DNA from: Salinigranum marinum
GTDB lineage: Archaea; Halobacteriota; Halobacteria; Halobacteriales; Haloferacaceae
Assembly: GCF_024228675.1 (NCBI RefSeq)
Contig: NZ_CP100461.1
Span: 1 to 64,000 of the forward strand
Direction of reading: 5' to 3'
Length of the DNA: 64,000 nt
Shown: positions 1 to 12,448 of the stretch, one piece after another
Layout: every line of letters starts with the position of its first letter
Numbering within the stretch: the stretch's first letter is position 1
Translations under genes and position numbers: made by a program
The notes under the pieces: model-generated
Database searches by the model: none
Told to the model about the DNA's origin: nothing
Seen by the model: only the letters and a program-made list of their open reading frames with translations

Positions 1-1
1 C

Positions 2-73
2 TTTTCGGTTCGGACTGTGGAGACGTTCGAGCGTACCGGCCGCGAGTACATCGTCGTCGTCGCCGACGCCTGA
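2..73 (+). CDS. 3' end of an unidentified CDS
   Basis: An open frame enters from the left edge and ends with TGA at 71-73, giving a C-terminal peptide ending in EYIVVVADA. The 24 visible residues do not identify a family. It faces the minus-strand AAA ATPase, which ends 27 bases further on, so the two genes converge. Confidence 0.55.
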   Translation, partial: FSVRTVETFERTGREYIVVVADA

Positions 74-2777: not shown

Positions 2778-3695
2778 ATGGGAGAGACACAGAAGCCAAA
2801 GGTAACTGCCCGCGAACGACGCGAGTTGGCAGCGCGCCTCGGTGTCGACGAGTCACGGACGGAGGAGAGTCCCACGCTGAGTGACCTCAAACGGGCGATC
2901 GAGACGGAGACCGACCCGGAGTTCGTCTCGATCGGCGAGGCCATCCGGGGGGACCTCACCGGCAAGCTCGACGCCGAGCTCATCGAACGAAACCTCGACG
3001 CGTTCGAGGAACGGATCGAGCGGTTCGACGAAGTCCGGGAGGCCGGCATCCCGGGCGGCGAAACGGAAGCCGAAGAGCTGTACAGAGAGGTAATCGCCCC
3101 CGCCTTCGCGGTGTACGATCACCTCGAAGCGGTCGGCTTCTTCGAGAGCATCGAGGAGAATCTCCCAGCGTTCACGGAAGAGCACATCGACAGCACGGCA
3201 CACGAGTTGCTCCAGGCAGATCCGCTGACCGACGCGCTGACCGCGGTCGGGTTCGACGAACACGAGCAGACGGCGCTGATGATGAACGTGGTCAACAACG
3301 ACACCCGGCTCTCGCGGTGGACGCCCACCAGCGAGATCCCCGACGGTGTCGAGTTCAACGTCGACTACGTGCCGCCGCTCCACATGCGAGCCATGGGCGG
3401 ATCCTTGCTCTGGATGAAGGCACTGGACGACCACCTGTGGAAGAAGAAGGTGCTCATCACGGAGGAGATTCTCGACGACGCACACTGGCGGAGCAAGGCG
3501 ATGCTCGCGGGGCTCGACGTGATGATCCGTGCCGCCCGCGCCGTCGCGGTGGGTGACGAGGACGAACTCACCGACGCGCAGGTGACCGCCGGACTCATCG
3601 CGGGGTCGGCGGTGTGTATCGTCAACCAGGAGGAACTGATGAAGGAGGCGTTCTGGATCACGGAGGAGAAACGCAAGCCGAGCGAGGCACGCTAA
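2778..3695 (+). CDS. Unknown 305-residue helical protein upstream of PQQ dehydrogenase
   Basis: I do not recognise this family. The protein is acidic, appears largely helical and has no signal peptide or membrane segment. The first 90 residues are charged. The C-terminal half contains an aromatic and methionine-rich stretch (PPLHMRAMGGSLLWMKALDDHLWKKK split across about 197-225) and a compact helical end with a single Cys in GSAVCIVNQEE. The only other gene on the same strand close by is the PQQ dehydrogenase, 73 bases downstream, so a shared transcript and a helper role (partner subunit, electron transfer or cofactor handling) are possible but unproven. The ATG is supported by the TATA-like box 27 bases upstream. 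Confidence 0.85.
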   Translation: MGETQKPKVTARERRELAARLGVDESRTEESPTLSDLKRAIETETDPEFVSIGEAIRGDLTGKLDAELIERNLDAFEERIERFDEVREAGIPGGETEAEELYREVIAPAFAVYDHLEAVGFFESIEENLPAFTEEHIDSTAHELLQADPLTDALTAVGFDEHEQTALMMNVVNNDTRLSRWTPTSEIPDGVEFNVDYVPPLHMRAMGGSLLWMKALDDHLWKKKVLITEEILDDAHWRSKAMLAGLDVMIRAARAVAVGDEDELTDAQVTAGLIAGSAVCIVNQEELMKEAFWITEEKRKPSEAR

Positions 3696-3768: not shown

Positions 3769-5487
3769 ATGGCGACAGAGGAAAACAAAGCAGTCAAGGC
3801 AGCGAGCGAGACGATCGTCGAAGAGACCGAACTCGGCTATCAGGTGTTCAACGCACCCGACGAGCCGGTGTTGGACCAGCACGACACGGACCGCATCCCG
3901 CGGTTCGACGTCACCCAGGAGATGCTCACCAACTCCGGCGACGACCCCGAGAGTTGGCTGATGTTCGCCAACAACTACGAGGCGCACCGCCACACCGCCG
4001 CCGACGCGATCACCAAGGAGAACGTCGGGGAGCTCGAACTGGAGTACGACATCACGGTCGGCGCGAACTCCAGCATGGAGGGCTCGCCCGTCGTCGTGCC
4101 GGGGGACCCGCCCGTCATGTACCAGACGAACGGGCCGAGCCACGTGAAGGCGCTCGACGCCCGCACCGGCGAGATCCTCTGGGCGTACACGTACCCCGCA
4201 CCGGACGACGCCGTGCTCTGCTGTGACGACAACAACCGCGGCGTCGCCGTCTGGAAGGACAAGGTGTTCCTCACCTCCCTGGACTCCGGCGTGCAGGCGC
4301 TCAACCGCTACACCGGCGAGGAGGAGTGGTACGCCTCCACCGCCGACCACAAGGAGGGGTACTCCGCGACGTGGGCGCCCATCATCTACGACGGCATGCT
4401 CTTTACGGGCAGTGCCGGCGGCGAGTACGGCGTCCGCGGCTTCCACTGCGCGTTCGACGCCGAGACCGGCGAGGAGCTCTGGCGCACGCTCACCTGCCCC
4501 GAAGAGGAGTACGTCGGCGACTCGATCAAGCAGTCCGGCGGCACCAACTGGATGAGCCCGACGATCGACACGGAGCGAGAACTGGTCCTGATCAACGTCG
4601 GGAACCCGAGCCCCGACTTCAACGGGACGGTCCGGCCGGGGCCGAACCGCAACACGTGTTCGACGCTCGCGCTCGACATGCACACCGGCGAGATCCAGTG
4701 GGAACACCAGGAGTCGGCCCACGACATCTGGGACTACGACGCGGGGAACATGCGGATCCTTATCCGCGACCTCGAGATCGACCACCGCGACTACGAGGGC
4801 GACGTCGTCTACAGCGGCGGCAAGACGTCGTTCGGCTACACGATGGACGCCGACACGGGCGAACTGCTCGTCCGCTCGGAGGCGATGACCCAGCAGATCA
4901 ACTTCCTCAAGATGGTGCCGCACGTCGAGGAAGAGCGCGAGTACGTCATGCTCCCCGGTCTCCTCGGCGGTGTCGACTGGCAGCCCGCGACCTACTGCCC
5001 CGCGACCGGCCTCGTCTACCACAAGACGCTCAACACGCCGCACAAGGTCGCCTGGCGCAACGAGGAGTTCCGCCCCGGTGAGAAGTTCTGGGGCGGCATC
5101 GTCGACGTCGAACCCGACGAGGAACACATCCCCGACGAGTACAACGGCCACATCTCCGCCGTCGTCGCCGTCGACCCGGCCACAGGCCAGGTCAAGTGGC
5201 GCGACTGGATCGACTCGGACCGCTACCTCTGGGGCGGCCTGATGTCCACGCCGACGGGGCTCGTCTTCGGCGGCACGCAGAACGGCCAGATGGTCGCCTG
5301 GGACGGCGAGACCGGCGAGCGCCTCTGGGAGTTCGACCTCTCTGACAAGGCCATCTCCGGCGACCCCGTCTCGTGGTACGACCCCGGGGAAGGCAAACAG
5401 TACATCGCGATCCAGGTCGGCGGCAGCGGCTTCGTCGGCCGCGGCCCCCGCGGCGACCGCCTCGCGGTCTTCTCGGTCGAGGCCTGA
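3769..5487 (+). CDS. PQQ-dependent alcohol dehydrogenase, predicted lanthanide type
   Basis: A 572-residue eight-bladed quinoprotein of the MxaF/XoxF/ExaF alcohol dehydrogenase family, which oxidises alcohols using pyrroloquinoline quinone. Family hallmarks visible: the rare adjacent Cys pair at 151-152 (VLCCDD); the metal/PQQ ligand Glu219 in GGEYGVRG; Trp261 in GGTNW; Asn279 in GNPSP; Lys352 in SGGKTSFGY; and the active-site segment HDIWDYD with catalytic Asp322 followed by Tyr323 and Asp324. In this family Asp-Tyr-Asp marks lanthanide-dependent enzymes, while calcium enzymes usually have Ala or Ser at the third place. Repeated W-docking motifs (ALDARTGEILW, AFDAETGEELW, ALDMHTGEIQW) define the blades. 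Oddly, no Sec or Tat signal peptide is visible (MATEENKAVK), although such enzymes are normally extracytoplasmic, and no cytochrome c gene is nearby. Substrate unknown. Confidence 0.9.
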   Translation: MATEENKAVKAASETIVEETELGYQVFNAPDEPVLDQHDTDRIPRFDVTQEMLTNSGDDPESWLMFANNYEAHRHTAADAITKENVGELELEYDITVGANSSMEGSPVVVPGDPPVMYQTNGPSHVKALDARTGEILWAYTYPAPDDAVLCCDDNNRGVAVWKDKVFLTSLDSGVQALNRYTGEEEWYASTADHKEGYSATWAPIIYDGMLFTGSAGGEYGVRGFHCAFDAETGEELWRTLTCPEEEYVGDSIKQSGGTNWMSPTIDTERELVLINVGNPSPDFNGTVRPGPNRNTCSTLALDMHTGEIQWEHQESAHDIWDYDAGNMRILIRDLEIDHRDYEGDVVYSGGKTSFGYTMDADTGELLVRSEAMTQQINFLKMVPHVEEEREYVMLPGLLGGVDWQPATYCPATGLVYHKTLNTPHKVAWRNEEFRPGEKFWGGIVDVEPDEEHIPDEYNGHISAVVAVDPATGQVKWRDWIDSDRYLWGGLMSTPTGLVFGGTQNGQMVAWDGETGERLWEFDLSDKAISGDPVSWYDPGEGKQYIAIQVGGSGFVGRGPRGDRLAVFSVEA

Positions 5488-9333: not shown

Positions 9334-9801
9334 TTACGAGAACCGTCTCTTCAGAGTCGACAGGAGCCCGCCGGAGCGGTCCTCGTCGGCGTCGTCGACC
9401 CCGTCGGCCTCGGCGTCGATGTCGGCCGATTCCGTGGGGTCGGCCCCGGTCGCGTCGCCTCCCTCGGGTGACTCCTCGACCGTCTCCGCGTCGGCCTCGT
9501 CCACGAGCCGCTCGGCCTCGCGGATGACCGCTTCGGCCTTGTTGACGCCGTCTTTGACCGTCTTCTTCACGACGGGTTTACCCGCGAAACGGTCCTGCGA
9601 GACGGCCGTGTCGGCCGTGATGACGACGACGTCGGCGGCAGCGATCTCCTCGGTCGTGAGTTCGTCCTGGGCACCCATCGCGCCCTGGACCTCGACGCGG
9701 ATCTCGTGACCCCGGGCTTCGGCGGTGGTCTTGACGTTCTCGGCAGCCATCTGGCTGTGGGCGATTCCGGTCGGGCAGGCGGTTACGGCGACGATCTTCA
9801 T
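9334..9801 (-). CDS. ptfB: PTS fructose-specific EIIB component
   Basis: A 155-residue cytoplasmic EIIB of the fructose class. It carries phosphate from EIIA to incoming fructose through the active-site Cys in the N-terminal loop VTACPTGIAHSQM (Cys at about 9). The EIIB fold ends near residue 105. The remaining 50 residues form a very acidic tail ending in LLSTLKRRFS, which is unusual for bacterial EIIB. It is the last gene of the HPr-EIIC-1-PFK group on this strand, 56 bases downstream of HPr, and an A-run (T-run on the coding strand) follows at 9324-9328 as a probable terminator. Confidence 0.93.
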   Translation of the reverse strand: MKIVAVTACPTGIAHSQMAAENVKTTAEARGHEIRVEVQGAMGAQDELTTEEIAAADVVVITADTAVSQDRFAGKPVVKKTVKDGVNKAEAVIREAERLVDEADAETVEESPEGGDATGADPTESADIDAEADGVDDADEDRSGGLLSTLKRRFS

Positions 9802-9857
9802 GATGTGGATTGTGGTCGGGTTGTGGTAGTTCGACGGACGGTCGTCCGCGGGTAGCG

Positions 9858-10127
9858 TTACTCGCCTTCCGGTGTCGAGAGCACGGCCTCGAGGGCGTCG
9901 AGTGCGGTCTCGCCGTCTTTGCCGTCGGCGACGAGTCGGACCCGTTCGCCGCTCTTGACGCCGAGCCCCGTGACGGAGAGCATGCTCCCCGCGGGCGCGA
10001 GATCGCCGTCTTCGGCACCGATCCGGACGTCGGCGTCGTACTCGTTGACGGTCTCGACGAACGCCGACGCGGGACGGGCGTGCAGGCCCGCCTCGGGGAC
10101 GACGGTGACGACGCGTTCGAGGCTCAC
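9858..10127 (-). CDS. ptfH: HPr phosphocarrier protein
   Basis: An 89-residue HPr, the phosphocarrier that moves phosphate from enzyme I to EIIA. The active His is in AGLHARPA (about His15), and the Ser46-region motif reads GSMLSVTGLGVKSG. Its length is normal for the family. It lies between EIIC and EIIB. The genes for enzyme I and EIIA, which should feed and drain this carrier, are not in the window. Confidence 0.94.
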   Translation of the reverse strand: MSLERVVTVVPEAGLHARPASAFVETVNEYDADVRIGAEDGDLAPAGSMLSVTGLGVKSGERVRLVADGKDGETALDALEAVLSTPEGE

Positions 10128-10190
10128 GCGACCGCCTCCCGCCGGTTCGGACGGCCCGTCTCGGCGGCGCGTGCCGTGGTCGTGGTCATC

Positions 10191-11324
10191 TCAGTCGCTC
10201 GCCCCCGCGGCGGTCTGGTTGGCGGTGCCGGCTTCCTCCTCGAAGTCGCCCTTGAGTAGGGTGGCGATCGCGGCGGTGACGAGCGAGCCGAGGACGATAC
10301 AGCCGAGGAACGCGATCGGCTGGCTCGACAGGGGGATCACGAAGATCCCGCCGTGCGGGGCGCGCATCCCCACGCCGAGCGCCATCGACAGCGCGCCGCC
10401 GATCGCCGAGCCGGCCACGATCGAGGGGATCACGCGCAGCGGGTCGGCGGCCGCGTACGGGATCGCGCCCTCGGTGATGAACGACGCGCCGAGGATGACG
10501 CCGTTCTTCGCGTTCTGGTACATCTCCTCGGCGTATTTGTGCGGGGCGATGAAGTTCGAGATCGCGAGCCCGATCGGGGGGATCATCCCCGCGATCATCA
10601 CCGCGGCCATCGGCTCGTAGATGCCCTCGCTCACCAGGCCGACCGAGAAGACGTACGCGACCTTGTTGACGGGGCCGCCCATGTCGAACGCCATCATCGC
10701 GCCGAGGATCGCACCGACGAACAGCGCCTGGCTCCCGCGCATGCCCTCGAGGAACGCGGTGAGCGCCTGGTTGGCCAGCGCGACGGGCGCGCCGATGACG
10801 AACAGGACGATCGGTGCCAGGACCGCCGTCGTGGCGACGGGAATGAGGAGCACGGGCATCATCGGGGCGATCGCCTGGGGCACGTCGAGATTCTTGAACC
10901 AGCGGGCGACGTAGCCGGCGACAAGCCCGACGACGAGCGCGCCGAGGTAGCCCGCGGTGGCCCCGCCGGCGTCGAGGCCCAGCACCGTGCCGGCCTCGGT
11001 GACGATGTTCCCCTGCTGGATGATCCAGGTGAGGACGAAGCCGGGCGCGAGCCCCGGGCGGTCGGCGATGGCGTAGGCGATGTACGCCCCGAGGACCGGA
11101 ACCATCAGGGTGAGGCCGGCGACGCCGATCTGGGCGAGGTACCATCCGACGCTGCCGGTGTTTTCGAATACCGAGACGGTGTCACCGGCGGCGAAGCCGA
11201 GCGCGAGGAAGATGCCGCCGATGGTGACAAAGGGGATCATGAACGAGACGCCGGTCATGAGGTCTTCTTTGACGGAGGTGACGTGCGACCGCAGCAGGCT
11301 CTCCGCCGTGTCGGTGGTGCTCAT
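10191..11324 (-). CDS. ptfC: PTS fructose-specific EIIC permease
   Basis: A 377-residue integral membrane protein of the fructose EIIC family that moves fructose across the membrane as it is phosphorylated to fructose 1-phosphate. About nine to ten hydrophobic segments are visible, along with the family segments MTGVSFMIPFVTIGG (near 18-32), GGPVNKVAYVF and the C-terminal APHGGIFVIPLSSQP. EIIC stands alone here rather than fused to EIIB or EIIA, as in other haloarchaea. The ATG at 11324 starts the predicted cytosolic helix. A TATA-like TATTTAG (reverse strand, about 11358-11364) lies upstream. Confidence 0.94.
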   Translation of the reverse strand: MSTTDTAESLLRSHVTSVKEDLMTGVSFMIPFVTIGGIFLALGFAAGDTVSVFENTGSVGWYLAQIGVAGLTLMVPVLGAYIAYAIADRPGLAPGFVLTWIIQQGNIVTEAGTVLGLDAGGATAGYLGALVVGLVAGYVARWFKNLDVPQAIAPMMPVLLIPVATTAVLAPIVLFVIGAPVALANQALTAFLEGMRGSQALFVGAILGAMMAFDMGGPVNKVAYVFSVGLVSEGIYEPMAAVMIAGMIPPIGLAISNFIAPHKYAEEMYQNAKNGVILGASFITEGAIPYAAADPLRVIPSIVAGSAIGGALSMALGVGMRAPHGGIFVIPLSSQPIAFLGCIVLGSLVTAAIATLLKGDFEEEAGTANQTAAGASD

Positions 11325-11370
11325 GCTGTATCCATCACAATCGTTCGAGGGTTACTGACTAAATACTACC

Positions 11371-11384
11371 GAACATGATTGTTT
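11371..11384. promoter_or_regulatory. Putative operator shared with pfkB (ptfC side)
   Basis: GAACATGATTGTTT sits just upstream of the ptfC TATA-like box. A near-identical element, GAACACGATCGTTT, occurs upstream of pfkB at 12586-12599, and a partial copy (CACAATCGTT) is at 11336-11345. Both full copies are imperfect palindromes. In Haloferax the fructose genes are controlled by GlpR; I infer a shared regulator site, but the sequence does not prove which protein binds. Confidence 0.4.
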
Positions 11385-11509
11385 CCATCGATAGATATCG
11401 AATTAAACAGGTATCGTGCACGGTTCCGCGCTCCGACGGCGAGAACTGCCGACAGGACGGACTGATCGGGACGCACGGACCTGGCTCGGGGAGGAGAGTC
11501 GACGGCTCG

Positions 11510-12448
11510 TTAGCTCGCACGGACGCCGCGGTCGTCGGCCTGCTCGGACGCGGCGAGGCTCTCGACCACCGACGCCGCGGTGCCGGCGGTGCCGACCACG
11601 CACGTGGCGACGTCGACGCCGAGTTGGAGGGCCGCCTCGTCGCTCTCGCCGCGCACCCACCCACAGAGGACGCCCGACAGGAGCGCGTCGCCCGCGCCGA
11701 CCGTGTCGACGACGTCCACGTCGGCCGCGGGGACGTGCGCCGTCCGCTCGGCGGAGACGAGGAGCGCACCGTCGGGGCCGAGCGACGCGATCACGCGCTC
11801 GTACCCCCGTTCGAGAAGCGCCTCGGCGGCGGCGACGCAGTCGTCGACGCTCTCGGTCGGCAGCCCGGTCGCCGCGTTGAGTTCCTCGCGGTTCGGCTTG
11901 CACGCGGCGTACGACGCGTCCAGCCGGGCGAGCGTCGTCCCGTCGACGTCGACGACGGTCTCCCACGCGCCCGCCTGGGCGACGGCGTCGATGGCCTCGA
12001 CGTCCAGCCCCGGCGGGAGGCTCCCCCCCACGACGACCGTCTCGGGGTCGTACGCGGCGATGCGGTCGACGACCCGCGCGACGGCGTCGGCGGCGACGGA
12101 CGGGCCGTCGTGGTTGATCTTGTACTCGGCGTCAGGGGTGGAGAGCGTCACGTTCACGCGCGTGTTGCCGGGGATCGAGACGAAGTCGTGGGCGAGGCCG
12201 TCACCGTCGAGGCTCGTGCGGACGAACGATCCGGTGAAGCCGCCGACGAGCCCCGTCGCGACCGCGTCGACGTCGAGCGCGGTCAAGTAGCCCGCGACGT
12301 TGATGCCCTTGCCGCCCGGATCGAACCGGGCCTCGTCGGTTCGCGCCACGGCACCGTCGACGAGCGTCTCGGTCGTGAGGGTGTAGTCGATCGCGGGGTT
12401 GAACGTCACCGTGACGACGGGCGAGCGAGGGCCGCGATCCATCGTCAC
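11510..12448 (-). CDS. pfkB: 1-phosphofructokinase (PfkB/ribokinase family)
   Basis: A 312-residue PfkB-family sugar kinase that phosphorylates fructose 1-phosphate to fructose 1,6-bisphosphate. The substrate signature is GGKGINVA near residue 45, and the C-terminal ATP/anion-hole motif is DTVGAGDALLSG with the catalytic Asp in GAGD. Its location beside the fructose EIIC, HPr and EIIB genes supports 1-phosphofructokinase rather than another PfkB kinase. The start could be the Met at 12448 or the one at 12442 (MDRGPRSPV). A 185-base gap separates it from ptfC, so ptfC may have its own promoter. Confidence 0.93.
   Translation of the reverse strand: MTMDRGPRSPVVTVTFNPAIDYTLTTETLVDGAVARTDEARFDPGGKGINVAGYLTALDVDAVATGLVGGFTGSFVRTSLDGDGLAHDFVSIPGNTRVNVTLSTPDAEYKINHDGPSVAADAVARVVDRIAAYDPETVVVGGSLPPGLDVEAIDAVAQAGAWETVVDVDGTTLARLDASYAACKPNREELNAATGLPTESVDDCVAAAEALLERGYERVIASLGPDGALLVSAERTAHVPAADVDVVDTVGAGDALLSGVLCGWVRGESDEAALQLGVDVATCVVGTAGTAASVVESLAASEQADDRGVRAS

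Follow-up and report, generated by a model that had tools for sequence, protein, structure and literature searches.

Gene context of the dehydrogenase

The window, by which we mean the whole 64,000-nucleotide stretch of Salinigranum marinum DNA analysed here, encodes on its forward strand (3769-5487) a 572-amino acid PQQ-type alcohol dehydrogenase with a lanthanide-type metal site (Glu219, Asn279, Asp322 and Asp324) and without a signal peptide. Upstream of it on the same strand (2778-3695) is the gene of a conserved, all-alpha partner protein of 305 amino acids. A CDC48-family AAA ATPase is encoded on the reverse strand (101-2395), and most loci of the window's clade have a CDC48-like gene in the vicinity of the enzyme. 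By analogy with MoxR, which has a maturation role for methanol dehydrogenase, these CDC48-like ATPases are a possible maturation factor for the dehydrogenase.

The first 73 bases of the window (1-73, forward strand) encode the C-terminal end of a class I methyltransferase, and they complete in frame an open reading frame that is cut off at the far end of contig C1 (4,002,753 bp). The contig is thus circular, and the genes of the window therefore continue into the rest of a larger cluster. The joined cluster places a ferredoxin gene about 4.9 kb from the enzyme and includes two CaCA exchangers, an AOR-type aldehyde oxidoreductase, three soluble NMT1-like proteins, a cupin, parts of an ABC transporter, and a dehydrogenase paralogue accompanied by a second CDC48 gene and a second ferredoxin. 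Annotated plasmids from Halomarina and Halococcus carry largely the same gene set. Not far from the dehydrogenase cluster, at 9334-12448 of the window, there are also a sugar-kinase-like gene and fructose-type PTS genes (IIB by NCBIfam). In many loci an ArsR-type regulator and an Amphi-Trp protein (L089:4291-4990) recur next to the CaCA exchanger and ABC genes.

The genome carries three dehydrogenase copies: the window copy, a 64% identical paralogue in the same cluster with no adjoining partner gene, and a 39% identical paralogue. The latter (locus L090; G000:C1:3784001-3803000) has the motif HDWWDRD and no Cys pair, and its partner gene is divergently transcribed, with a product that is 28% identical.

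A metal site of the lanthanide type

The dehydrogenase matches the Pfam PQQ family (6.6e-56) and, over almost its full length, TIGR03075 of NCBIfam (385 bits, E 5e-115, against a curated cut-off of 480 bits). Judged by sequence, it is homologous to TIGR03075 but beyond the limit of that named subfamily. The acido-empty-quinoprotein family TIGR04528 is also matched, at 261 bits and under its curated cut-off of 650 bits. The active-site segment reads ESAHDIWDYDAGN and includes Asp322 and Asp324; the codons of His318-Asp319-Ile320-Trp321-Asp322-Tyr323-Asp324 occupy 4720-4740 of the forward strand, with coordinates taken from the reading frame. The HDIWDYD motif described in an earlier note on this DNA is therefore present in the 572-amino acid reading frame, as are the other residues that the note had assigned to the MxaF/XoxF family, namely the vicinal Cys151-Cys152 pair, Glu219, Asn279 and Lys352.

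The closest PDB entry by both sequence and structure is PedH, the lanthanide-dependent enzyme of Pseudomonas putida (6zcv/6zcw, 29% identity). In the alignment the DYD of the dehydrogenase falls on the DFD of PedH, with Glu219 over GGEFG, Asn279 over GNP and Lys352 over an Arg. The same alignment output has no Asp at position 324 in the calcium and quinohemoprotein enzymes, which read D-F-S (1flg) or D-Y-T (1kb0, 1yiq). The AlphaFold model (pLDDT 88.5, pTM 0.92) is predicted to adopt the eight-bladed PQQ propeller fold; a Foldseek search with it retrieved PedH as top PDB match (E 9e-48, TM 0.83) and matched PedH, XoxF and MxaF at a TM of about 0.8. The dehydrogenase shares with PedH the eight-bladed propeller, the vicinal Cys and the Glu/Asn/Asp/Asp set. 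The XoxF methanol dehydrogenases (4mae, 6dam, 6oc5), which are lanthanide-dependent and have D-x-D, show the same fold at 25-29% identity. The calcium enzymes MxaF and ExaA (1h4i, 1flg) also share the fold, the catalytic Asp, the Glu, the Asn and the vicinal Cys, but they have Ser, Thr or Ala where the haloarchaeal protein has Asp324.

Among 40 aligned haloarchaeal homologues (36-83% identical to the window protein), Asp322, Asp324, Asn279 and the PQQ-contact residues Arg157, Trp261 (the PQQ-stacking Trp) and Lys352 are invariant. At position 219, 37 homologues have Glu and 3 have Asp, and the vicinal Cys pair is kept in 29. The conservation of D-x-D across these homologues indicates that its occurrence in the dehydrogenase is not due to chance. 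In PedH, lanthanide coordination has been connected with the third-position Asp, which is Ser in the calcium-dependent sister PedE (PMC5487730). A 2025 survey takes D-x-D as the marker of lanthanide enzymes (PMC11996626), and in PedH, XoxF and ExaF this Asp goes with lanthanide use (PMC5487730, PMC11996626). The lanthanide-type site proposed in the earlier note is thus supported by the PedH alignment and by the invariance of Asp324, and the haloarchaeal dehydrogenase is likely, though not certain, to depend on rare earths.

Distribution and localisation of the dehydrogenase

The dehydrogenase was detected in 51 of 292 haloarchaeal genomes (about 17% of the sample), a count in which G193 is represented by a fragment only and G163 by a split copy. 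It is thus no isolated case, and is more widespread than the earlier note had described. In a phylogenetic tree (midpoint root, characterised XoxF and PedH sequences not included), the 40 haloarchaeal rows are all separated from the 12 bacterial ones (support 100/99), and the window dehydrogenase falls within a nested haloarchaeal clade. The best reading of these sequences is that the dehydrogenase would represent a branch specific to haloarchaea within the PQQ dehydrogenase superfamily.

The reading frame upstream of the ATG adds 42 residues and contains no hydrophobic stretch. By inspection, no N-terminal signal is visible on the enzyme in any of the 40 haloarchaeal homologues, so the earlier statement that there is no Sec or Tat signal extends to the whole set. 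The dehydrogenase of the window's clade is probably cytosolic.

A partner protein that tracks the dehydrogenase

Of the 51 genomes with the dehydrogenase, 50 also encode the partner, against 0 of the 241 genomes without it (Fisher p 7e-56; a single hit in G253, at E 8e-4, is left out of the count), and the partner gene lies directly upstream of the dehydrogenase in nearly all loci. Comparison with Pfam and NCBIfam families and with PDB sequences gave no match. Its predicted structure is confident (pLDDT 91.7), and the best match of this model to PDB folds had an E of only 0.42. The partner has no conserved Cys or metal site; its invariant residues are W181, P200, G208, W212, A278 and R299. A structural or escort role thus appears likelier than a redox role. 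We considered whether the partner could be a PqqC-like or redox protein, and rejected this given the lack of a fold match, a conserved Cys and a metal site.

Nine early-branching loci encode a partner that opens with a Tat-type RRxFLK motif and then a hydrophobic stretch. No locus of the window's clade has this motif, and the Tat-type signal of the window partner is degenerate. The Tat-type signals are short, and not all of them reach the family cut-off: with the Tat HMMs, the partners of L101 and L105 score over the NCBIfam cut-off, those of L082 and L102 slightly under it, that of L100 weakly, and that of the window not at all. As the dehydrogenase bears no signal of its own, it would most naturally be exported in a complex with the partner, the latter carrying the Tat signal. 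An analogous arrangement is known for proteins of the Gluconate 2-dehydrogenase subunit 3 type, small non-redox subunits that carry the Tat signal for an unsigned dehydrogenase, but homology of the 305-amino acid partner to Pfam, NCBIfam or PDB entries is not detectable.

Candidate electron acceptor genes near the enzyme

Outside the window's clade, 18 of 21 loci have a cupredoxin gene near the enzyme and 1 of 21 has a [2Fe-2S] ferredoxin gene within 9 kb of it; inside the clade the counts are 0 of 23 for cupredoxin and 20 of 23 for ferredoxin. For these counts the window was taken across the circular join, and loci within one clade are related, so that the numbers reflect few independent events. 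In most loci with a Tat-type partner a cupredoxin gene adjoins that of the enzyme, and in many cases the cupredoxin has a Tat motif of its own. In one locus (L106:9751-11841) a dehydrogenase of the same family is fused to an N-terminal cupredoxin domain (Pfam Copper-bind), a natural clue to the ancestral electron acceptor. Two groups, comprising six Natrialbaceae loci in one case and L103 and L104 in the other, have retained the cupredoxin, yet their partners show no Tat motif. Either the changes of signal and of acceptor were therefore not simultaneous, or another route exists; a clean one-step loss of export was rejected, as some cupredoxin clades already lack the Tat motif.

Both ferredoxins of the joined cluster score over the NCBIfam cut-off for haloarchaeal Fer. 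The potential of PQQ/PQQH2 is far more positive than that of a classical haloarchaeal ferredoxin, so reducing an ordinary ferredoxin from PQQH2 would be uphill. The ferredoxin of the cluster may instead serve the AOR. In agreement with the earlier note, which had seen no cytochrome c gene nearby, no CXXCH protein was found either in the window (56 genes called) or in neighbouring loci, except 52-amino acid zinc-ribbon-like proteins. GSDH-family sugar dehydrogenases are encoded near relatives of the enzyme at L100:11244-13211, where the protein is fused to a Copper-bind domain, and at L102:6280-7632. These are a possible further use of PQQ in cells without detectable PqqC.

Metal and PQQ supply

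An orthologue of the CaCA exchanger (threshold E below 1e-95) was detected in 42 genomes, each of which also encodes the dehydrogenase (Fisher p 3e-42; by genus 5.6e-14). In G247, G175 and G242 the exchanger is encoded away from the enzyme gene, indicating that the co-occurrence is not mere linkage. One NMT1-like protein also co-occurs with the dehydrogenase (40 of 41). The soluble NMT1-like triad was considered as a PQQ-specific module and rejected, since G037, a genome without the enzyme, has the triad beside AOR genes; that locus (L127; G037:C1:2616001-2634000) comprises the triad, a cupin, a regulator and two AOR-type genes. The triad may serve aldehyde oxidation.

The earlier note called for a search for PQQ synthesis genes elsewhere in the genome, and its outcome was negative. 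No PqqC scored over the family cut-off in 292 haloarchaeal genomes (there was one sub-threshold match), while the search worked on a Sinorhizobium plasmid taken as positive control. Nor was PqqE found over the cut-off in 232 haloarchaeal genomes, in a run without a positive control. Candidate PqqE and PqqB proteins in the window's genome were rejected as weak matches like those in control genomes. As PqqC was detected in none of the 292 genomes, PQQ would have to come from outside the cell or from a pathway not yet recognised. The neighbouring ABC transporter is a candidate PQQ importer.

Proposed mechanism and alternative explanations

We propose that the window encodes a soluble, cytosolic PQQ alcohol dehydrogenase with a site built for a trivalent lanthanide, descended from exported ancestors and served by the partner, carrier and supply proteins described here, a reading that we consider somewhat better than an even bet. 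The dehydrogenase and the 305-amino acid partner would form a complex. In ancestral relatives the Tat signal of the partner would have taken the unsigned enzyme outside by hitchhiking, and a cupredoxin outside the cell would have received the electrons. The window's clade would have lost the signal and retained the complex inside the cell, where the PQQ-lanthanide centre would oxidise an alcohol, possibly methanol. Electrons would go to a soluble cytosolic carrier, for which the adjoining [2Fe-2S] ferredoxins are candidates, and the aldehyde to the neighbouring AOR-type or other aldehyde oxidoreductases. A dedicated CaCA exchanger would handle the metal, and PQQ would be taken up from outside, perhaps via the neighbouring NMT1-type ABC transporter. 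The acceptor, the metal, the substrate and the PQQ source are the weakest steps of this mechanism. Points against it are the uphill electron transfer to an ordinary ferredoxin, the two groups that have a cupredoxin but no Tat motif on the partner, and the 64% paralogue, which has no partner gene next to it. Methanol as the specific substrate was rejected: formate dehydrogenase is encoded beside the enzyme in six loci, but the gene is present in 208 of the 292 haloarchaeal genomes, and a formaldehyde-dehydrogenase-like gene near three loci scores under its family cut-off.

It is also conceivable, if rather unlikely, that the enzyme is a PQQ dehydrogenase that uses Ca2+ (or Mg2+) in vivo, with the extra Asp tolerated or inherited. 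Salt lakes are high in Mg and Ca, and the co-occurring exchanger is a member of a Na+/Ca2+ family. The membrane glucose dehydrogenase has D-x-D too, yet it is reported to complex Ca, Mg, Zn or Sr (PMC11996626). The motif by itself is compatible with the use of Ca or Mg. The invariance of Asp324 down to 36% identity argues against this explanation, as does the position of PedH as the closest structure to the predicted model, and Good et al. 2020, as cited in PMC11996626, reportedly found the Asp to be essential for lanthanide coordination and function. Less probable still is an empty quinoprotein, in which the fold was kept without PQQ for another ligand or role. The lack of PqqC and PqqE over the cut-offs would fit such a protein, and so would the missed TIGR03075 cut-off together with the match to TIGR04528, but TIGR03075 scores far above TIGR04528, the catalytic Asp, the metal ligands, the PQQ-stacking Trp and the Arg/Lys contacts are invariant or nearly so, and electron-carrier genes and a metal exchanger track with the dehydrogenase.

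The remaining alternative concerns the compartment: the window enzyme could leave the cell by hitchhiking on a different Tat protein or through some unusual route, and act outside. To our knowledge, all PQQ alcohol dehydrogenases that have been studied act outside the cytoplasm. The early-branching relatives are paired with a Tat-type partner and exported cupredoxins, and PQQ outside the cell would make an importer needless. The window's clade, however, has no signal on the enzyme or the partner, whose open frame can be extended by 7 residues only, and all 23 of its loci are without the cupredoxin gene, with ferredoxin genes in most of them instead. We therefore regard export as improbable, and retain a cytosolic lanthanide-type dehydrogenase as the preferred reading.

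Relation to known systems and significance

XoxF is periplasmic and works with XoxG and XoxJ, neither of which was found with the haloarchaeal dehydrogenase. PedH is part of a periplasmic oxidation system (PMC5487730) and, unlike the haloarchaeal enzyme, has no 305-amino acid partner, ferredoxin or CDC48 context. Our search of the open-access literature yielded no account of a haloarchaeal lanthanide enzyme, nor of a PQQ dehydrogenase located in the cytosol. The fullest form of our proposal, which we advance tentatively and consider less likely than not, is that this would be the first archaeal lanthanide enzyme working in the cytosol, with a Tat-escort and cupredoxin ancestry, retained inside the cell and provided with a ferredoxin-type carrier, a CaCA metal supply and scavenged PQQ imported by an ABC transporter.

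The findings raise the question of how cells without detectable PqqC get PQQ inside. If the proposal is true, the CaCA exchanger would be a candidate metal transporter with a clean genomic signature, the partner would define a new protein family, and rare-earth biology would reach a second domain of life and a second cellular compartment.
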